This document shows, in pieces, positions 28,674 to 51,697 of a stretch of DNA of 64,000 nucleotides. Location of the stretch: positions 62,001 to 126,000 of the forward strand of contig JAKYXN010000003.1 in the NCBI GenBank assembly GCA_022538095.1, given 5' to 3'. This DNA comes from Puniceicoccaceae bacterium K14. Lineage in GTDB: Bacteria; Verrucomicrobiota; Verrucomicrobiia; Opitutales; Opitutaceae. The position numbers were made by a program, and so were the translations under genes. The notes under the pieces were generated by a model. The model had not been told where the DNA came from. It did not search any database and saw only the letters and a list, made by a program, of their open reading frames with translations. Numbering within the stretch: the stretch's first letter is position 1; each line of letters begins with the position of its first letter.

Positions 28674-29339
28674 ATGAAGATTGCGATGATTCCAGCCCGA
28701 ATGGGAAGCCAAAGGCTTACGAAAAAGAATCTACAGAAGATTAAGGGAACAACATTGATATCCCATGCGATCCGGAAATGCGTGAAAGCTGGGTGCTTCG
28801 ATGAAATATGGGTAAATTCGGAACATCCAGATTTTGGTGAAATCGCGCAAAGCGAAGGAGTTCATTTTCATCAGAGGCCGGCTAGTTTAGGAAATTCTGT
28901 TGCGACTAGTGAGCAATATGTGGCTGAGTTTTTGGAAAAGAATCGATGTGATACGCTTTTCCAAGTCCACAGTATTGCTCCTTTGTTAACCGCAGAGGAC
29001 GTTGTTAAATTTGTTAAAAAAATGGAGTCGAGTTCTTTTGATACTTTGCTTAGTTGTGATAATATTCAAATAGAATGCGTTTATGGGAGTAAGCCGGTGA
29101 ATTTTAATTTCGACGAAAAATCTAATTCTCAAGATTTGGAACCTATTCAACGGGTTAATTGGGCAATATCAGCATGGAAGAGAGGGCAATTTCTGGAAGC
29201 CTTTCGTAGTGGTAAATGTGCTACTTATAGTGGGGACGTTGGGTTTCATTCCTTGAGTACTTTAACTTCGCATATTATCAAAACGAAGGAAGACCTTCTT
29301 TTGGCCGAAAAACTCTTTGATTTAGTGTTCTCCGAGTGA
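28674..29339 (+). CDS. CMP-sugar synthetase (acylneuraminate cytidylyltransferase family), homologue 1
   Basis: This 221-residue nucleotidyltransferase activates an acidic sugar with CTP. The nucleotide-binding loop is MIPARMGSQRLTKKNLQ at residues 5-21, close to the NeuA/KdsB pattern IPARGGSKRLPxKN. WVNSEHPDFGEIA and HQRPASLG follow in the usual positions, and the C-terminal half is divergent. Possible substrates include nonulosonic acids (sialic, legionaminic, pseudaminic) or Kdo-like sugars. The last base of its stop codon is followed directly by a GTG in the next gene's frame. It is one of three homologues in the locus. Confidence 0.8.
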   Translation: MKIAMIPARMGSQRLTKKNLQKIKGTTLISHAIRKCVKAGCFDEIWVNSEHPDFGEIAQSEGVHFHQRPASLGNSVATSEQYVAEFLEKNRCDTLFQVHSIAPLLTAEDVVKFVKKMESSSFDTLLSCDNIQIECVYGSKPVNFNFDEKSNSQDLEPIQRVNWAISAWKRGQFLEAFRSGKCATYSGDVGFHSLSTLTSHIIKTKEDLLLAEKLFDLVFSE

Positions 29340-29348
29340 GTGCAAGAT

Positions 29349-29933
29349 ATGGTTAAAACAAGTTATTATTCGAATTTCTGTTCGGCTCTTCAGTCTGCTC
29401 TTTCATCTCTTGAGGTAACGACTTTGGATGGGAGTATTATCGAACCCGACGATGGGTTAGTTCAGTTTTGCAAATTATCTGAATTGGTCGCGGCGTCAGG
29501 TGGGTGTCAATATATGTGTGGAAATGGAGCAAGTGCAGCGTTTGCGAATCATATGGCTTTAGATTGGACAAAAGCAGGTGGTATTAAAACGTATTCGTTT
29601 AGTGACTCCGCCATTCTAACTGCGGCAGCGAACGATTTAGGTTATGACCAAATGCTGAGCGCTCCATTAGGTTGGTATTCGAAAAAAGGAGATCTGCTGG
29701 TCACTATTAGTTCTTCGGGAGATTCAGAAAACGTACTGAACGCTATAGCAGTAGCACGGTCAATGGGACTCCAGGTGGTTACCTTAAGCGGTATGTCTTC
29801 CGGCAATAGATCGAGATTGCTTGGAGATTTAAATTTCTACATACCAGGTAAGACTTATGGGATCGTTGAATCATCTCATCAAGTCTTGCTTCATGCGTGG
29901 TTGGATCGATTTTTGGATATACCGTATGAATAG
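29349..29933 (+). CDS. SIS-domain sugar-phosphate isomerase, GmhA-like
   Basis: This SIS-fold protein of about 194 residues resembles phosphoheptose isomerase. Its phosphosugar-binding motifs are MCGNGASAAFANHMALDW (compare GNGGSAADAQHFAAE in GmhA) and TISSSGDSENVLNAI. The first in-frame start is a GTG at 29340, directly after the preceding stop; the ATG at 29349 is more likely. Family members interconvert ketose and aldose phosphates in heptose, Kdo or related pathways. Sitting between a CMP-sugar synthetase and a dehydrogenase, it probably makes an early intermediate of the CMP-activated sugar. Confidence 0.8.
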   Translation: MVKTSYYSNFCSALQSALSSLEVTTLDGSIIEPDDGLVQFCKLSELVAASGGCQYMCGNGASAAFANHMALDWTKAGGIKTYSFSDSAILTAAANDLGYDQMLSAPLGWYSKKGDLLVTISSSGDSENVLNAIAVARSMGLQVVTLSGMSSGNRSRLLGDLNFYIPGKTYGIVESSHQVLLHAWLDRFLDIPYE

Positions 29934-29936
29934 ATT

Positions 29937-30743
29937 ATGAAGCTTTGGAAGAATACGAGTACTTTGGATTCACTCTGCGATAGTATTTTAAATACCGCGG
30001 AGCCATCGATAGCGGATATTGCTCTGATTGGCGGGAAGAAAATAGATTTGTCAACGCTTCCAAATTTAAAGGGAATATTTAAGTGTGGTGTGGGTACGGA
30101 TAATGTGCCGTTTGAGGAATGCGAGAAACGAGGAATTGAAGTCGGTTTGCCTTCCGCTGATACTGCAGAAATAATATTTGAGGAAACTGCGACTTTTACA
30201 GTTTCGATGATATTTAGGATGCTGTATTCGGAAGTTGGGTCGATTGATTCTTGGAGAAAAATGCAACGTACAATTGCGGCGAAGAAAAGCGTTTTGATCG
30301 TAGGTCTGGGGAACATTGGTCGCCGAGTTGCGGGAAAGCTTGAGGGAAGTGTTAATGTTCTTCATTTCGATCATTTGCAGGTAGAAAATACCTCTCTTGA
30401 GGAGCTAATGGGACAAGCGGATGTTGTCTCTATGCATATTCCGCTAACAAAGGATAATCGTTCCTTCTTTGATAAAGAGAAATTGTCTTGGTTGAAAGAT
30501 GGTGCGGCGATTGTGAATACGGCGAGAGGTGCAATTGTTGACGAAGAAGCTTTGTTTCTGGAAATTCAATCAGGTCGTTTGCGTGCAGCGTTTGATGTTT
30601 TCTGGGAGGAGCCATACAAAGGGAAATTAGTGCAATTTGCAGATGATCGGTTTTTCATGACCCCCCATGTCGCCAGTACAAGTAGGCAATTTCTTGAGGG
30701 CTTACTCAAGGATTTTAAGGAATTTGCAAAAAAAGTATGCTGA
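29937..30743 (+). CDS. D-isomer-specific 2-hydroxyacid dehydrogenase (SerA-like)
   Basis: This 268-residue NAD-dependent dehydrogenase has the nucleotide fold IVGLGNIGRRVAGKL (Gly at 123-128). Its catalytic triad is Arg197 in NTARGAIVDEEAL, the Glu of DVFWEEP (about 224-225) and His244 in TPHVAS. GVGTDNVPFEECEKRGI is the usual substrate-side motif. It is shorter than most members (about 310-330), with a reduced N-terminal domain. It would oxidise or reduce a 2-hydroxy/2-keto acid. Its place in a sugar operon suggests a 2-keto acid sugar or a lactate/glycerate-like substituent. The following gene overlaps it by 7 bases. Confidence 0.85.
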   Translation: MKLWKNTSTLDSLCDSILNTAEPSIADIALIGGKKIDLSTLPNLKGIFKCGVGTDNVPFEECEKRGIEVGLPSADTAEIIFEETATFTVSMIFRMLYSEVGSIDSWRKMQRTIAAKKSVLIVGLGNIGRRVAGKLEGSVNVLHFDHLQVENTSLEELMGQADVVSMHIPLTKDNRSFFDKEKLSWLKDGAAIVNTARGAIVDEEALFLEIQSGRLRAAFDVFWEEPYKGKLVQFADDRFFMTPHVASTSRQFLEGLLKDFKEFAKKVC

Positions 30744-31720
30744 AGGTTGCAATAATTGGATACGGTAAGATGGGGCGAATTCGCCACAAGCACTTAGTCG
30801 AGAGCGGTCGTGCTGAGGTGGTCTTGGTTTCTGATCAGCAGGAGGTGCCCGATGCTCCATGTAGGCAAGTCAGCGATGAGGGAGAGATATTCGATGACCC
30901 GTCAATAGACGCAGTGTTTGTTTGTACGCCGAACTACAGAATACCGGAATTGGTTATCCGAGCTCTGAAAAATGGAAAACATGTTTTCTCTGAGAAGCCG
31001 CCAGCTAGAAATGCCGCAGAGATTGAAGAGGTTCGAATGGCTGAACAGGCTGCGATTGGATGCAAGTTGATGTATGGTTTTAATCACCGTCACCATACCA
31101 GTATTCAGAAAATGAAAGAGATCATCGATTCTAAAGAGATGGGCAAGGTGCTTTGGATGCGTGGACGGTATGGAAAAGAAGTGGATGAGTCGTACTTTGA
31201 TACATGGCGAGCAGACCCGAAACTGGCGGGCGCTGGTATTATGCTCGACCAGGGAATACACATGTTAGATTTGTTTTTGCATTTTTGCGGGGATTTTGAC
31301 GAAGTGCATGCACTTGTATCCAACTTATTTTGGAAGATTGAAGGTGTTGAAGACAATGTATTCGCGATTATGAAGAATAGCGAGACGGGTGTATGCGCGT
31401 CTCTTCACTCCACGATGACTCAATGGAGGTACTTGTTCTCGTTAGAAGTTTTTCTTGAAGGTGGCGCTTTGATTCTTAATGGTCTGAAAACTTCCTCTGG
31501 GGTTTATGGTGAGGAAGATTTAGCTATCAAGAGAAATGCTCCAGACGCTGACGGAAGTTTTGCAGGTGAGGAACACATTGTGTATGAAGTGGACAGCTCG
31601 TGGATGTCTGAGATCAATCATTTTTTAGATAGTATTGAAATGGATACTCCTGTGGCATTCGGGAATTCAGAAGATGCGCTGCGTTTGATGAAAGTGATGG
31701 ATAGGATTTATGGCAATTAG
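30737..31720 (+). CDS. Gfo/Idh/MocA-family oxidoreductase, copy 1
   Basis: This 327-residue NAD(P)-dependent oxidoreductase has the Rossmann motif VAIIGYGKMGRIRHKHL at residues 4-20 and the EKPPA motif with the family's conserved Lys-Pro pair. GAGIMLDQGIHMLDLFLHF is the C-terminal-domain signature with the catalytic-region His. Enzymes of this family oxidise sugar hydroxyls, for example in UDP-GlcNAc-3-acid or inositol pathways. Co-translation with the hydroxyacid dehydrogenase (7-base overlap) and the glycosyltransferase (11-base overlap) places it in the sugar-synthesis block. Confidence 0.87.
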   Translation: MLKVAIIGYGKMGRIRHKHLVESGRAEVVLVSDQQEVPDAPCRQVSDEGEIFDDPSIDAVFVCTPNYRIPELVIRALKNGKHVFSEKPPARNAAEIEEVRMAEQAAIGCKLMYGFNHRHHTSIQKMKEIIDSKEMGKVLWMRGRYGKEVDESYFDTWRADPKLAGAGIMLDQGIHMLDLFLHFCGDFDEVHALVSNLFWKIEGVEDNVFAIMKNSETGVCASLHSTMTQWRYLFSLEVFLEGGALILNGLKTSSGVYGEEDLAIKRNAPDADGSFAGEEHIVYEVDSSWMSEINHFLDSIEMDTPVAFGNSEDALRLMKVMDRIYGN

Positions 31721-33404: not shown

Positions 33405-34286
33405 ATGAGGACTCGAGAAATTGTCAGTTTAGGTATCGGCAGGGATTACGTACGTTGTGCGGTGGCTTGCCTAAAGTCCTGTCGAAATCAGATTTCTGAT
33501 GATGTGAGCTTTCGCCTTTACTATGGGAATGCAGATCCGAGCGTCTTTGAAATTCCAGATTGGTTAGAGCTTGAATGTATAGATAATTTGATTTTTCAAA
33601 AACTTACGCGACAGGATTTGTCGATGCGACCAACATTTGCTAGAGAATTTAAACATGTGCCTTTGACTCATCCCGCGAGTCGGGAAAGCGATGTTCTTTT
33701 CTTGGATGCGGATGTGTACGCTTTTGGAAATCCGTTCGATGACTTTTTTAAAAAAATAGAAGATGGCTCTGCCATATTGTTTGCTAAGGATAAGAAGGCT
33801 TTTCCAATCTATAGGAATCTTAGGCATGAGTTTGACCTCAATTTGGTCGAAGAGGGTAATAGACTTGGTTATACGCTGTCTAATTTGTCACCAAATACTG
33901 GAGTTATGGGCAGGGCTGCAGATGAGTATGGGTGGGCCTTTGCGGACAGAGCGGCTGAGCTTATGGCAAAGCGTATATTGACGCCCTTTCCGGACACCGA
34001 TTATTTTAACGATGAACCTTATTTTTCAGTAGCGTTTCAGCTCGAGGTTTCAGGTAAAGGTAGGGGATTTATCGATATATCGACTAAAGACTATATTCAT
34101 ACGCATAAAAAAGGGGTATTGAAAAACCAGGATAGTGATGCTCCAAGCGTGTATTGGGGGCAGCAAGATGTGCTGCATGAAAAACCCAAGTTGATACACT
34201 TTATAGGTTTTCGACAGTTTCCTTGTTACCTTTCGCGGGTGGAGCGGGATGTTCCTTTTGTTTCTTCGGGAGAGCGCTATTCATGA
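33405..34286 (+). CDS. Putative GT-A glycosyltransferase
   Basis: This 293-residue protein resembles nucleotide-sugar transferases with a GT-A fold. It has a short N-terminal strand with conserved Gly (IVSLGIGRDYVRCAVACL) and the metal-binding DxD motif in VLFLDADVYAFGNPF near residue 105. 'LSNLSPNTGVMG' is typical of the acceptor side in GT8-like families, and DTDYFNDEPYFSVAF follows. I cannot name the donor sugar. Its last four bases (ATGA) overlap the start of the DUF115 gene, so the two proteins are probably made together. Confidence 0.7.
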   Translation: MRTREIVSLGIGRDYVRCAVACLKSCRNQISDDVSFRLYYGNADPSVFEIPDWLELECIDNLIFQKLTRQDLSMRPTFAREFKHVPLTHPASRESDVLFLDADVYAFGNPFDDFFKKIEDGSAILFAKDKKAFPIYRNLRHEFDLNLVEEGNRLGYTLSNLSPNTGVMGRAADEYGWAFADRAAELMAKRILTPFPDTDYFNDEPYFSVAFQLEVSGKGRGFIDISTKDYIHTHKKGVLKNQDSDAPSVYWGQQDVLHEKPKLIHFIGFRQFPCYLSRVERDVPFVSSGERYS

Positions 34287-35167
34287 AGGTTTGGGAAGAT
34301 GATTTTCCGTTGAGCGAACGCTTTATAGCTGTGCTGCGATATCGGCGAGCACATAAAGAATTCTTTGAGAGGCCGTACTGGGGACGTAATACGATTTCGG
34401 GTAAGTATGGCTTGGTGCGTCGAAAAGGGTATCACGGAAGATTGGGGGATTTGACCGCCAAACATACAGGGAAGCGTTGCTTTATAGTAGCCAACGGGCC
34501 TAGCTTGGCTCAGTTAGATCTAGCAAAATTGAGGTCTGAAGTGGTGATAGCTTCAAACGGAGCCTATAAGATCTTCAATGAATTAGGATTCTCTCCTACC
34601 TACTATACGATGGAGGATGCTCGCCAGATAGAGGATAGGAGAAAAGCGTTGCCTGAGGTTAGAGGCTCGACTCGAATTTTTCCTTTGAGAAGCTCATATT
34701 GTATTAAACCTCGTGAAGATACAATATTCTGTAATTTGGAGAAAGAGAGCTATCCGTCTCATAGAAGATATAGGGAATTGTATCCATTATTTTCAGAAGA
34801 TTTTGCGTCCACGGTTTATCTAGGGTCTACAGTGACGTACTTTAATCTACAATTGGCGTTTCACCTAGGATGTGATTCTGTGTATCTCATTGGGTTGGAT
34901 CACGACTATGGAGAGGTCGTTGAAAAGCTCCCTCCTGGTAAGGTTAAAATTACGCCCGAAGTGTACGAGATGATAAAAGATTCACATTTTGCGCCTGGGT
35001 ACCATAAAATCGGAGGTTATATAGGTGTTCCTTATGTTAAATACCAGGAACAAGCTTTCAAAAAAGCTAAAAGTGTTTTTGCGATGAGGGGCCGCAAAGT
35101 GTACAATGCCAGTGCTCATTCAAAATTAGATGTATTCGAACGCGTAGACTACGCGTCCCTTTTCTGA
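34283..35167 (+). CDS. DUF115 (MptE/Maf-like) protein, copy 1
   Basis: The frame opens at 34223, but the ATG at 34283 overlaps the preceding stop as ATGA and gives a 294-residue protein that aligns with the copy at 47248-48129. The DUF115 core is clear: CFIVANGPSLAQLDL (NGPSL at 71-75), IASNGAY, YLGSTVTYFNLQLAFHLGC and LIGLDHDYG. Families with this fold include archaeal 6-hydroxymethylpterin kinase MptE and the flagellin glycosylation Maf proteins, whose core resembles sialyltransferases. In a locus with CMP-sugar synthetases, a CMP-sugar transferase is the best guess. The next gene overlaps its stop by one base (TGATG). Confidence 0.75.
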   Translation: MKVWEDDFPLSERFIAVLRYRRAHKEFFERPYWGRNTISGKYGLVRRKGYHGRLGDLTAKHTGKRCFIVANGPSLAQLDLAKLRSEVVIASNGAYKIFNELGFSPTYYTMEDARQIEDRRKALPEVRGSTRIFPLRSSYCIKPREDTIFCNLEKESYPSHRRYRELYPLFSEDFASTVYLGSTVTYFNLQLAFHLGCDSVYLIGLDHDYGEVVEKLPPGKVKITPEVYEMIKDSHFAPGYHKIGGYIGVPYVKYQEQAFKKAKSVFAMRGRKVYNASAHSKLDVFERVDYASLF

Positions 35168-41339: not shown

Positions 41340-42167
41340 ATGTCCTATTTAGAGAGATCTAAGAATAAAAGAATCGATGAAGACGTTTACGTTTCTTCCG
41401 CAAAATCTGTATGGGGTGATTATGGGGACGATAATAATGTTCTAAAGGATCTTGGACAAAAGAAAGCGGAAATGGGATTTGCGGATCTGATACGAGGGCG
41501 TCGTGTTGCGTTGGTGGGCCCCTCCGAATCGCTTGTGGGTAAAGGAGACGAAATCGATAGTTATGACTTGGTGGTGAGATTAAATAATGCCACACACTTT
41601 TATCCATTTGAATCGAACCTTTCTTACGATATTGGTTCTCGCTTTGACGTACTTTATTGCCTGGGTTGGCGCGACCTACGTAACGCCAATTTATCAAATA
41701 ATCGGCCCAATTTAGAGTATTTGAAATTTCTTGTTTCGGCGGAAGTAGAGTTATCTTGGATCGATAACGAAGATCCGTTTATTGAAGATTGGATTCGCCA
41801 AAAGCACTTTCGCGATATCTTGACTGAATGTGGGGTGCAGTATCGTTATGCCAAACACGACTTTCTTTATGGATGGCTTAATGGTTATAGACCTCGGATG
41901 GGATTTATAGCTCTAGCTGATTTACTTATGTTTGAGCCGGCGGAGCTCAAGTTGTTTGGGTTTACTTTCTATCATGGGGGGGGGCATCGCTTTAAACCGT
42001 ATGCGACTATCGAGCCACAGAAGCACCCAAGTGGATATATTGATCTGCATGATGGCGACGAGGAGATTCGAGTACTGAAGTTACTAATGAGAAGTGAATC
42101 GACTATAAAAATTGATGAAATCTTGTCTCAAGTTATTGAGGACGTAGAAAATCGAGATAATATATAG
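41340..42167 (+). CDS. GT29-like (sialyltransferase-type) protein
   Basis: This 275-residue protein matches the motif order of family GT29. The L-like motif is at 55-104: VALVGPSESL, IDSYDLVVRLNNA, DIGSRFDVLY. The S-like motif is at about 184-211: RPRMGFIALADLLMF, LKLFGFTFY. A VS-like His-x4-Glu occurs at H237/E242 (LHDGDEEI). GT29 enzymes use CMP-sialic acid and are best known in animals; bacterial homologues are few and mostly uncharacterised. The next gene, 20 bases on, is a CMP-sugar synthetase, which supports a CMP-sugar donor. The usual L-to-S disulfide cysteines of animal enzymes are not evident. Confidence 0.7.
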   Translation: MSYLERSKNKRIDEDVYVSSAKSVWGDYGDDNNVLKDLGQKKAEMGFADLIRGRRVALVGPSESLVGKGDEIDSYDLVVRLNNATHFYPFESNLSYDIGSRFDVLYCLGWRDLRNANLSNNRPNLEYLKFLVSAEVELSWIDNEDPFIEDWIRQKHFRDILTECGVQYRYAKHDFLYGWLNGYRPRMGFIALADLLMFEPAELKLFGFTFYHGGGHRFKPYATIEPQKHPSGYIDLHDGDEEIRVLKLLMRSESTIKIDEILSQVIEDVENRDNI

Positions 42168-46207: not shown

Positions 46208-47251
46208 CTATTTAAGGCTAGTAAGAATCCTCTCAAACTCTTGAACATATTTACGAATAGAGTAGTTGTGAGCTTTTGCAAATGCTTCCTTACCTATTCG
46301 AGATATTGATTGGGGACACATCATTTTGGTAATTCCTGTTAGTTCTTTAGTTTCACCAATAGGGAAAATAAACCCGTTTTTTCCATATTCTATGATGCCG
46401 TTTGTTCCACTTTGGGTTTTGGATACGATAGGTACACAGCCTTCGGCCATCGCTTCTAGCATGCTGTTGCTAGTGCCCTCATAGGCGGATAAGGAAATCA
46501 TAACGTCGTGTTCTCGCCAAAATTGCGGCATTGAACCTGGGGATTTTTTTCCGATTACGTGAACTCGATTTTCTGGGTCTTTTGCTTTGAGCCTTTTTTC
46601 CAACGCAGTGATTTCACGTCCTGCACCCGCGATGGATAAAGTGAATTCTATGCTCTGTCGATAGAGCTGGTCAACGAGTTCGATTAAGTCATAGACTCGC
46701 TTCTGTTCTTGGTCGATTCTACCGCCGTAGGCGATTCGGATCGGAAAGGTTTGCCAGGTTCTATCTAATGTCTCGGAAACTTCAACACCGGTAGGAAGAA
46801 TGGTTATTGGAATTCGACTATCGATAGGTAGATGATGAGAGAGTTTCTCGGCGCATTCTGGGCTTACTGCGACTACATGGCTTAGAAGATGGGCAACTTT
46901 TTTTAGAGGCTCATAGTACTCCTTTTCTGAATCGGAGCGGCAGTAGCCGATTAGCTTTAGGGCGTGACCTTGGTGTTTAAGTTTTTCGCAGACGTTAAAA
47001 AGCTCCCAAAAATAGTTTGGGACTACAACAGGTGAATTGAGTTTCGATACGAACGTTTTGAATAACTCTGGAGTTGGTGTAATGGCGTCAAATTGACCGA
47101 CAGTTTCGGTAGTATTTAAGCAATTAATTACGTGTATGCGAATGTTTGAGTTTCCTAAAAACGCTTTTCGTAGGCGAAATGCCCAGGATGTGACACCTGA
47201 TATGAAATCGCCTGAACAAATTACGACATCGATTTTTTTTGAAGATGTCAT
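46208..47251 (-). CDS. GT4-family glycosyltransferase
   Basis: This 347-residue retaining GT-B enzyme has an N-terminal half with VVICSGDFISGVTSWAFRLR and a donor half with RIAYGGRIDQEQKRVYDLIELV, VHVIGKKSPGSMPQFW and the E-x7-E loop YEGTSNSMLEAMAEGCVPIV. These are strong family-4 signatures. It is co-directional with the second DUF115 gene, whose stop overlaps its start by 4 bases. The same pairing, DUF115 then GT4, occurs on the plus strand at 34283-36435, so the pairing looks meaningful. Confidence 0.87.
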   Translation of the reverse strand: MTSSKKIDVVICSGDFISGVTSWAFRLRKAFLGNSNIRIHVINCLNTTETVGQFDAITPTPELFKTFVSKLNSPVVVPNYFWELFNVCEKLKHQGHALKLIGYCRSDSEKEYYEPLKKVAHLLSHVVAVSPECAEKLSHHLPIDSRIPITILPTGVEVSETLDRTWQTFPIRIAYGGRIDQEQKRVYDLIELVDQLYRQSIEFTLSIAGAGREITALEKRLKAKDPENRVHVIGKKSPGSMPQFWREHDVMISLSAYEGTSNSMLEAMAEGCVPIVSKTQSGTNGIIEYGKNGFIFPIGETKELTGITKMMCPQSISRIGKEAFAKAHNYSIRKYVQEFERILTSLK

Positions 47252-48129
47252 TGGTTGATGACGGATGCGTAAGCATCTTTTGGTATTGCTTCAAGTTTTG
47301 TATCTGGGGTTAGGTTGACGAGTGTTCGTCCAGCAGCTTGGAATTGCTTTTGGGCTAGCTCGAAGGCTTGTTCTTGTCGATCTACATCGGGAACCCCAAT
47401 TTGGTCACCAATTTTGTAGTACGAATCTGTATAGTGCAAACCGCGGATTTTTTCTATGTTTTCGGCGGTGACATCAATCTTTCCTGGCTGGAAGAGTTTG
47501 GGTAACTTTCCATAGTTGTGGTCTAAGCCAAGTAGATACACTTTTTCGCAGCCTAAGTAGTAGGCCCACTGTAGCATTACATATGTGATGGTGCTTCCTA
47601 GGTGCACGATTGCAGCGAAGTCTTTGGAAAACTGAGGATAGAGCTCATTCCAGTAGTAAAGATTCTTTCGCATACGAGGAGCATTGAAGAAAAGGGTGTC
47701 TGAGTCTGCTTTTACGGCGTAAGCATTGTATAGGGCTGCTAGCTTCTTAGGGCCTTTGATTTTTGGGAAATCGTTCCTTCTCAATTCCAGCTGTTCGATA
47801 TCTTCGAAGAAGAGGAAGTTGGTGTGGAAGCCAAAATCTTGGAAGCCTTTGTAAATCCCATTGCTACCAATGGTTATTTCACCTTTGAGAGGGCTTAAGT
47901 CTTGTGCTTTGAGACTAGGACCATTGCAGAGGATAAAGCACCGTTTGCCTGCATACATATTGTAATGCTCTGCGATTTTCTCTTGGTAGCCAGGCTTTCT
48001 AAGTAGCTTAAGTTTGCCTTCCCAGAAACCTAGATAGGTTCGTTCCCAAAATCGGTGGCGGGCTCTTACCAAACGCATGTATGCTAAGGGTTTGGCGAGG
48101 GATGGGAATTTGTGCGTCCAGGCTAGCAT
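47248..48129 (-). CDS. DUF115 (MptE/Maf-like) protein, copy 2
   Basis: This 293-residue paralogue of the protein at 34283-35167 has the same motif order: CFILCNGPSLKAQDL (NGPSL at 69-73), IGSNGIY, HLGSTITYVMLQWAYYLGC, VYLLGLDHNYG and the C-terminal GVPDVDRQEQAFELAQ. By eye roughly two fifths of residues are identical. It opens the minus-strand block and lies divergently 143 bases from the GT at 48273. The duplicated DUF115 genes may serve two acceptors or two CMP-sugars. Confidence 0.75.
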   Translation of the reverse strand: MLAWTHKFPSLAKPLAYMRLVRARHRFWERTYLGFWEGKLKLLRKPGYQEKIAEHYNMYAGKRCFILCNGPSLKAQDLSPLKGEITIGSNGIYKGFQDFGFHTNFLFFEDIEQLELRRNDFPKIKGPKKLAALYNAYAVKADSDTLFFNAPRMRKNLYYWNELYPQFSKDFAAIVHLGSTITYVMLQWAYYLGCEKVYLLGLDHNYGKLPKLFQPGKIDVTAENIEKIRGLHYTDSYYKIGDQIGVPDVDRQEQAFELAQKQFQAAGRTLVNLTPDTKLEAIPKDAYASVINQ

Positions 48130-50922: not shown

Positions 50923-51067
50923 GACGAATTCATGTTGAGGGATAGGGCTCGATTTCTGTTTGGCCTCTCAAATGCTATGTAATGGGTGTTTGGGTTAAAT
51001 CCGTCGGATTGGGCGCGAATAGCTATACGAGGTGGCAATTTTTGCCGTCCTCGACTTATTTCATTTC

Positions 51068-51697
51068 ATGCATGTAGTTGGATCCATAATTGCCCGGTTG
51101 GGAAGTAAACGTTTAACGTATAAAAACCTTTTGCCATTCAAAGGTAAACCTTTGGTGGGCTTAGGGATAGAGATTTTGAATGCGACTCATTCGGTTAACC
51201 AAGTGGTGGTTTCGACTGAGAGCGAGTTGATCGCTCGAGTGGCTCTGGATTATGGGGCAACGGTGTTAAAGCGTCCGACAGAATTGGCCGAGGACCATGT
51301 GCCGTCTGTTCCTGTCTTTCAGCACGTAGTGGATAATTTTCCCTGCGATGTACATGTAAATTTTAATATAAATTTCCCTCTTTGTGAACCGGATGTGGTC
51401 GATCGTGCGGTGGCGTTGGCGATCAAAGATGGTGAGGCGCTTTCGCGACCATTCGCGGCATGGGCACAAACTCGCAAGTGCTTGGAGAACTATGGCGATC
51501 CGTACAAGATCTCGGCACATCAGCACGAGTTTGAAGATAAACGTGCGGGTAATTTGGACATTCATACGCTCGAAGATTTGCTGGAAACTTATCGTGAGAA
51601 GCAGGGAATTCGACCTGTTGGGCTCCCTGAAGCGTTTTTAGAGGAGGATTCTGCTAATATTTGCTGCGAATCGGTCGATTCGATGAATGAGCAATAA
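51068..51697 (+). CDS. CMP-sugar synthetase (cytidylyltransferase), homologue 3
   Basis: The frame opens at 51032; the ATG at 51068 begins directly at the nucleotide-binding strand, MHVVGSIIARLGSKRLTYKN, and gives about 209 residues. IIARLGSKRLTYKNL matches the cytidylyltransferase loop with the conserved Lys-Arg. 'VVVSTESELIARVALDYG' and 'VLKRPTELAEDHVPS' follow in order. The C-terminal part (GNLDIHTLEDLLETYREKQG) is reduced compared with NeuA. It is about 145 bases after the GT2 gene and overlaps the next frame by 11 bases. Confidence 0.78.
   Translation: MHVVGSIIARLGSKRLTYKNLLPFKGKPLVGLGIEILNATHSVNQVVVSTESELIARVALDYGATVLKRPTELAEDHVPSVPVFQHVVDNFPCDVHVNFNINFPLCEPDVVDRAVALAIKDGEALSRPFAAWAQTRKCLENYGDPYKISAHQHEFEDKRAGNLDIHTLEDLLETYREKQGIRPVGLPEAFLEEDSANICCESVDSMNEQ

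Follow-up and report, generated by a model that had tools for sequence, protein, structure and literature searches.

What is known of GT29 comes from animal enzymes, and the gene described here raises the question of whether a bacterium encodes a relative of these sialyltransferases and, if so, which sugar it transfers. The gene is an intact ORF of 275 amino acids with an ATG start, located in the 64,000-nucleotide stretch of DNA that was analysed as a whole (the window; Table 1). Its product, the query of the searches below, is probably a cytosolic glycosyltransferase of the GT29 side that moves a CMP-activated acidic sugar of the ulosonic type from CTP_B, the product of the adjoining gene, to a surface glycan. 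The established steps of this reading are the family match, the predicted fold, the VS histidine and glutamate, and the statistical pairing with CMP-sugar synthetases.

Table 1. Coordinates of the GT29-like gene, its motifs and the genes of the surrounding island.
Feature	Position in window	Strand	Remarks
CTP_A, second cytidylyltransferase	28674..29339	+	Relatives in 52/80 viral GT29 loci (best 80 of 139)
SIS-domain isomerase	29340..29933	+	Relatives in 39/80 viral GT29 loci (best 80 of 139)
D-2-hydroxyacid dehydrogenase	29937..30743	+	Relatives near CTP_B-type synthetases elsewhere
Gfo/Idh/MocA oxidoreductase	30737..31720	+	Counterpart on viral contig L025 with 54% identity
MptE-like (PF01973) protein	34223..35167	+	Weak match to WaaZ (Kdo transferase); relatives in 17/80 viral GT29 loci (best 80 of 139)
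ORF, 365 aa	40233..41330	+	Gap of 9 bases to the GT29-like gene; nothing above cut-off in Pfam
GT29-like protein, putative cytosolic CMP-sugar-dependent transferase	41340..42167	+	Pfam, AlphaFold2, profile, VIA-align
Sialylmotif L-like stretch, residues 54-101, RRVALVGPSESLVGKGDEIDSYDLVVRLNNA...DIGSR	41499..41642	+	VGP, against VGN in ST3Gal1; no cysteine
Sialylmotif S-like stretch, residues 184-210 (RPRMGF...LKLFGFTF)	41889..41969	+	Sequence reading, alignment
H212-GGG-H216, clade-specific, directly after motif S	41973..41987	+	Alignments; GGG codons form a G9 tract
Sialylmotif VS, H237xxxxE242	42048..42065	+	Sequence, phmmer, alignment
CTP_B, divergent CMP-sugar synthetase, PF02348	42187..42918	+	Follows the GT29-like gene after 19 bases
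CTP_C, third cytidylyltransferase of the island	51032..51697	+	PF02348

Only one Pfam family matches the query at E≤1: PF00777 (GT29), with 26 bits and E 7.2e-6 against a curated cut-off of 23 bits. At the same threshold there is no match to GT42, GT52 or GT80, for which the Pfam library presumably contains models, and none in NCBIfam; no PHROG family was assigned. A six-frame search of the whole genome gave this stretch 22 bits, narrowly missing the PF00777 cut-off. When the query alone was run against the PDB with phmmer, the only matches were two mammalian ST3Gal1 sequences, at E 0.089 and 0.094; its HDGDEE pairs with HDGDFE of ST3Gal1. At the level of sequence, the match of this single protein is therefore weak but specific. 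A profile of the 95-row alignment A3, which includes the query, matches mammalian GT29 at E 1.3e-21 and GT42 at E 2.6e-9, and a 43-row profile without the VGN-type rows gives 1.6e-9 for GT29 versus 1.1e-3 for GT42. The GT29 likeness that the earlier note had read from the letters thus goes beyond chance, and the profile comparison it had called for puts GT29 ahead.

The AlphaFold2 model of the query (pLDDT 80.9, pTM 0.83, with residues 211-230 modelled poorly) aligns best with GT29 structures in VIA-align: ST3Gal1 at Z 14.8 (3.9 Å over 207 residues), ST6GalNAc2 at 14.5, ST6Gal1 at 13.9 and ST8SiaIII at 13.7. CstI (10.9), CstII (10.7) and an MptE-type HPPK (10.0) follow. ST3Gal1 is also the best PDB match in Foldseek (E 4.7e-7, TM 0.47), where TM-scores to GT29 are about 0.4-0.5. 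The earlier note would have been refuted by a profile and structure firmly outside the sialyltransferase folds; both lie inside them, with GT29 first. Membership in GT42 was rejected on its rank below GT29 in the structural alignments, in both profiles and in Pfam. The query is a real member of the GT29/GT42 superfamily, closer to GT29.

Motifs of the L, S and VS types all occur in the order first noted. Motif L keeps IDSYDLVVRxN, DIGSR and VALVG, with proline in place of the VGN asparagine and the cysteine missing. Motif S is partial, retaining P185, G188 and the LxGF end, and lacking the cysteine and the S/T residues between P and G. The VS motif reads H237-D-G-D-E-E242. The match to the GT29 sialylmotifs therefore holds for L and VS and partly for S; it does not extend to motif III, as the canonical H-Y is missing and the phmmer alignment sets K219-P220-Y221 opposite H-H-Y of ST3Gal1. 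No H[YF] is present in the motif III stretch of the query. In PMC6884586, from which the definition of motif III is taken, the VS histidine of ST3Gal1 serves as catalytic base, with the motif III histidine as the acid. Across A3, D76 and G99 are invariant, the VS histidine is retained in 92 of 95 rows, and the VS glutamate in 54, with glutamine instead in 26; PF00777 matches 89 of the 95 at E≤1. The rows divide into 39 of VGN type, 50 of VGP type and 6 others, and motif III H[YF] is found in 19, 0 and 2 of these, respectively. Neither a hydrophobic N-terminal anchor nor the disulfide cysteines conserved in animal enzymes were seen on reading the query.

The HGGGH that comes right after motif S is shared with four relatives: L104 (Myxococcota), L105 (Poribacteria), L106 (Bacteroidota) and L108 (Acidobacteriota), all from phyla other than the query's. 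When 238 loci were searched with the expression [FLMIY][YFH]HGGGH, it followed motif S only in these four and in copies of the query locus; an extra match in L017 lies outside its GT29-like ORF and is due to chance. The HGGGH proteins form one group (SH-aLRT 95) in a quick tree with the motif columns included, made from the first 95 of 121 non-redundant rows. This clade sets the query's branch apart as a variant among GT29-like proteins. It also bears on whether the protein might share the fold without being a glycosyltransferase, as an MptE-like pyrophosphokinase would, or might be a catalytically dead enzyme. An MptE-type HPPK is next in the fold ranking, the motif III histidine is lost, and the genome search falls below the PF00777 cut-off. 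However, GT29 structures rank clearly above the HPPK, PF01973 gives no match at E≤1, which together led us to reject MptE-like membership, and all five members of the HGGGH clade keep the VS histidine and glutamate. We regard a non-transferase or a dead enzyme as very improbable.

The G9 tract in the HGGGH codons (41976-41984) is the sole one in the window, where 0.28 are expected, and it might be a slippage site. Mixed glycine codons encode the same GGG in L104, L105, L106 and L108. Genome-wide, G9 gives 25 overlapping matches at 16 places, and the shuffled rate of the window predicts about 25. There is therefore no enrichment; phase variation through this tract was set aside on that ground and remains an idea.

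The query matches 2 of 286 genomes of its class, and among 387 genomes of its phylum PF00777 matches 5 and the HGGGH-clade profile 8, its own genome being included each time. A search with a six-sequence alignment yielded 139 relatives among viral contigs and another 79 among genome contigs of many phyla, and an iterated profile found 191 GT29-like ORFs (with copies counted) in 174 of the 183 sources. From the motif, tree and CTP-motif counts, the locus copies L001, L002, L003, L005-L010, L112, L130 and L170 were left out, as were L014 and L016 from the CTP-motif counts. The viral contig L004 was rejected as a relative, since its match is a short peptide inside a long phage protein and it has no GT29 ORF. 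Neither the query (at E≤1e-3) nor the viral relative L085 (at E≤1e-5) had a tblastn match among GenBank phages, so the viral evidence comes from IMG/VR contigs. All three viral contigs that were checked have phage genes near the GT29-like gene: a major head protein in L032, a translation repressor in L055 and an SbcCD-like gene in L024.

In L133, L136, L157 and L161 the GT29-like domain is part of proteins of great length, from 884 to 1687 aa. Those of L133 and L136 combine it with a group 1 glycosyltransferase domain in a single chain. These long proteins may be bifunctional enzymes. On one MAG contig (L107:7349-11505), three GT29-like genes stand in tandem ahead of a 2-hydroxyacid dehydrogenase gene and one for a relative of CTP_B with 47% identity. 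At L104:9705-11279, in Myxococcota, an MptE-like gene (PF01973, 67.8 bits) directly follows the GT29-like gene; PF01973 occurs twice in the window island. In genome G231, of the same family as the query's, the region L020:8506-13674 groups a GT29-like gene with a PEP mutase/nucleotidyltransferase fusion, a TPP enzyme resembling phosphonopyruvate decarboxylase, an aminotransferase of class V and a HAD protein. Since this is an aminoethylphosphonate-type operon, some GT29-like proteins might use CMP-phosphonates, for which PMC6697681, on PntC, provides background.

The gene that follows the query was also correctly named at the outset as a CMP-sugar synthetase. CTP_B matches PF02348 with 46.4 bits (cut-off 22.6), its nearest PDB entry is a CMP-Neu5Ac synthetase (E 2.6e-17), and chains of that type are its only PDB matches at E≤0.01. 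Two signatures are altered, LLGNTVMV replacing TSP and DVH replacing DxD. Among 88 cytidylyltransferases of the loci, TSP is present in 51 and [GA]N[TS] in 5 (CTP_B, L107, L032, L018 and L080), while a hand count gave D[IV]D in 54, and D[VI]H in CTP_B, L107 and L032; the L018 cytidylyltransferase carries DVH. Six PF02348 matches occur in the genome, at C209, C298, C325 and three places in the window. C209 has the highest score (169 bits) and is taken as KdsB. This opens the way to another explanation, in which the query is a Kdo transferase fed with CMP-Kdo by the housekeeping pathway. Plant GT29-like proteins have been proposed as Kdo transferases, and the nearby MptE-like protein weakly matches WaaZ. 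But a dedicated synthetase next door would then be superfluous, the PDB matches of CTP_B point to the CMP-Neu5Ac type alone, and none of the 19 window proteins scanned with Pfam matches a family of the Kdo-8-phosphate synthase type. A Kdo transferase is thus quite improbable.

Is the proximity of query and synthetase meaningful? Adjacency was defined as a cytidylyltransferase on the same strand within fewer than 300 bases, and compared with a null drawn from the other genes of the same loci in 20000 simulations, for 75 bacterial and 63 viral loci after removal of near-copies. A cytidylyltransferase adjoins the GT29-like gene in 10 of the 75 bacterial loci (3.1 expected; 7 simulations as high) and in 29 of the 63 viral loci (5.7 expected; none as high). 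Such neighbours are enriched around relatives, and similar pairs of GT29-like and synthetase genes are present across bacteria and in phages. Flank lengths vary, and absence is stated within the available flank: there, the four closest relatives (L104, L105, L106 and L108) have no CMP-sugar synthetase, two of the flanks being short. The best reading of the GT29-like protein is a CMP-sugar-dependent transferase.

The viral loci share more than the pair. In a BLAST tally (best match, E≤1e-5) over the best 80 of the 139 viral relatives, near-copies included, CTP_B has relatives in 5 loci, CTP_A, the SIS isomerase and the MptE-like protein having them in the numbers given in Table 1; L025 carries relatives of the 2-hydroxyacid dehydrogenase (49%) and of Gfo/Idh (54%). 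NeuB-like ORFs occur in 9 of these 80 loci and an HpcH/HpaI-like aldolase in 12. In bacteria, a NeuB-like gene is found in the flanks of 13 of 85 loci (82 without duplicates), and the aldolase in 0 of 82. Sequences of L241, L030 and L041 went into the aldolase profile, that of L241 having been checked with Pfam. In five viral loci in which the GT29-like gene accompanies a cytidylyltransferase (L041, L030, L033, L035 and L064), the aldolase is found together with a 322-347 aa protein that resembles the window SIS gene by BLAST, to which, in L041, Pfam assigned no family. This suggests a virus-coded route to a keto-deoxy sugar.

What CTP_B activates can be approached from its own relatives. A search that started from it brought up five new viral loci, two of them (L242 and L244) with a GT29-like gene, and five new bacterial loci, none with one. 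Fourteen CTP_B-type loci were compared (the window, L107, L032, L018, L239-L242, L244 and L254-L258); L259 and L260, which end inside the gene, and L243, the same contig as L032, were left out. A 2-hydroxyacid dehydrogenase lies near the CTP_B-type gene in L107, L032, L239, L240 and L257, and 11 kb off in the window, and an epimerase-like gene does so in L239 and L256 (Pfam) and in L240, L244 and L257 (by eye). NeuB-like genes are near only 2 of the 14 (L239 and L255), so the CTP_B product may not be a NeuB product. Since most of the newly found CTP_B-type loci have no GT29-like gene, CTP_B is not tied to GT29 alone.

These data bear on the most conventional alternative, that of an ordinary pseudaminic (or legionaminic or sialic) acid transferase, with CTP_B as the genome's missing PseF-like enzyme and Pse placed onto a surface glycan. 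As judged by model scores, the genome encodes most of the pseudaminic acid pathway, PseB and PseI scoring above their cut-offs and PseC (413 vs 423.5) and PseG (110 vs 153.6) below. No PseF exceeds its cut-off anywhere in the genome, and CTP_B could therefore be the enzyme that activates Pse as the donor. Of the genome's PF02348 matches, three out of six are in the window, CTP_B having the best score of the three against the PseF model TIGR03584 (81.8 bits), and a VGP-type relative from Pseudomonas (L122) is found in a locus with PseI and PseF above their cut-offs. That score is nevertheless far from the cut-off of 205.7, while the C298 cytidylyltransferase, beside NeuB, reaches 134. CTP_B is without TSP and DxD, both kept in the PseF of L122, and the scarcity of NeuB among CTP_B-type loci also argues against this explanation. 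The Pse genes are on another contig, with flagellin-like ORFs, recognised by reading, in the neighbouring stretch. An ordinary Pse-type transferase is accordingly somewhat unlikely.

The island around the query has its own features. GC content is 40-44.5% over 28-50 kb, compared with 42-49% over 1-28 kb and 44-48% over 50-64 kb, and the lower values would fit horizontal gain. The 365-aa ORF just upstream looks, on reading, like a GT-B type glycosyltransferase. Two MptE-like proteins, that of Table 1 and another at 47248-48129, score above the PF01973 cut-off; the WaaZ match is weak in the first and bare in the second. Both match a PHROG named alpha-2,3-sialyltransferase, and they are possibly further CMP-sugar transferases of the island.

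For the preferred CMP-sugar transferase, the following course can be proposed. CTP_B would link an acidic sugar of the ulosonic type to CMP, and the GT29-like protein would transfer the sugar onto a surface glycan that the island assembles. H237 would act as the base, like H316 in human ST3Gal1, and the reaction would invert. The acid would be a residue other than the motif III histidine, perhaps one of the HGGGH histidines, or none would be needed. The donor may be a pseudaminic-like nonulosonate or else a related ulosonic acid of an unusual kind; CTP_B motifs and gene contexts make an unusual donor plausible. Several findings count against this reading: the missing motif III acid, the modest Foldseek TM-scores and the poorly modelled residues 211-230, the sub-threshold score in the genome search, the synthetase-free flanks of the four closest relatives, and the CTP_B-type loci that have no GT29-like gene (3 of 5 new viral and all 5 new bacterial ones). 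Nor does a NeuB lie within the window, the genome's two being on other contigs. A bolder proposal, which we put forward tentatively and with more doubt than belief, is that the HGGGH-type enzyme and CTP_B belong to an undescribed system with a CMP-sugar other than Neu5Ac, Pse, Leg or Kdo, in which the HGGGH loop has taken over the catalytic acid from motif III, and with cassettes of this kind exchanged between bacteria and phages. One such donor could be a 3-deoxy-ulosonic acid made through the 2-hydroxyacid dehydrogenase and an epimerase in place of NeuB.

The earlier note had held that a bacterial enzyme with an unusual CMP-sugar donor would be new. Bacterial GT29 proteins as such are not, since PMC5811610 (2018) describes 23 sequences from bacteria that carry motifs L, S, III and VS and branch basally in the GT29 tree, and proposes a bacterial origin of GT29, the function of the bacterial members not being predictable from trees; it is the donor that could still be novel. 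A targeted literature search on bacterial GT29 gave this paper alone. The best matches listed in wider searches, seen as titles and the starts of abstracts with subscription journals thinly covered, include no assay of a bacterial GT29, and searches on phages and unusual CMP-sugars found nothing on a GT29-like/CTP_B system. We have here a small, probably soluble bacterial GT29-like member without the motif III acid, adjoining the enzyme that likely makes its donor, and the superfamily also stands beside such enzymes on phages. The query and CTP_B together offer a direct route to testing what bacterial GT29-like enzymes transfer, possibly leading to a new CMP-sugar.

Compared with known systems, the query is like the GT29 sialyltransferases ST3Gal1, ST6Gal1, ST6GalNAc2 and ST8SiaIII in fold, in motifs L, S (partly) and VS and their order, and in the position of the histidine base. 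It differs from them in having no disulfide cysteines, no visible membrane anchor, VGP for VGN, and HGGGH without a canonical motif III, and is only 14-21% identical to them in structural alignments. The bacterial GT29 proteins of Petit et al. (2018; PMC5811610) share its bacterial source; as far as the available part of that paper describes them, they too are without the conserved disulfide cysteines and the type II membrane anchor, and carry motifs L, S and VS, but the logos described there include motif III. GT42 (CstI and CstII) shares the superfamily fold, a bacterial origin and CMP-sugar donors, which for the query are predicted, but gives lower Z-scores and a weaker profile match than GT29. 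Finally, CTP_B resembles the NeuA/PseF cytidylyltransferases in its PF02348 domain and in its nearest PDB entry, and departs from them in LLGN[TS] for TSP, in DxH for DxD, and in a PseF score far below the cut-off.
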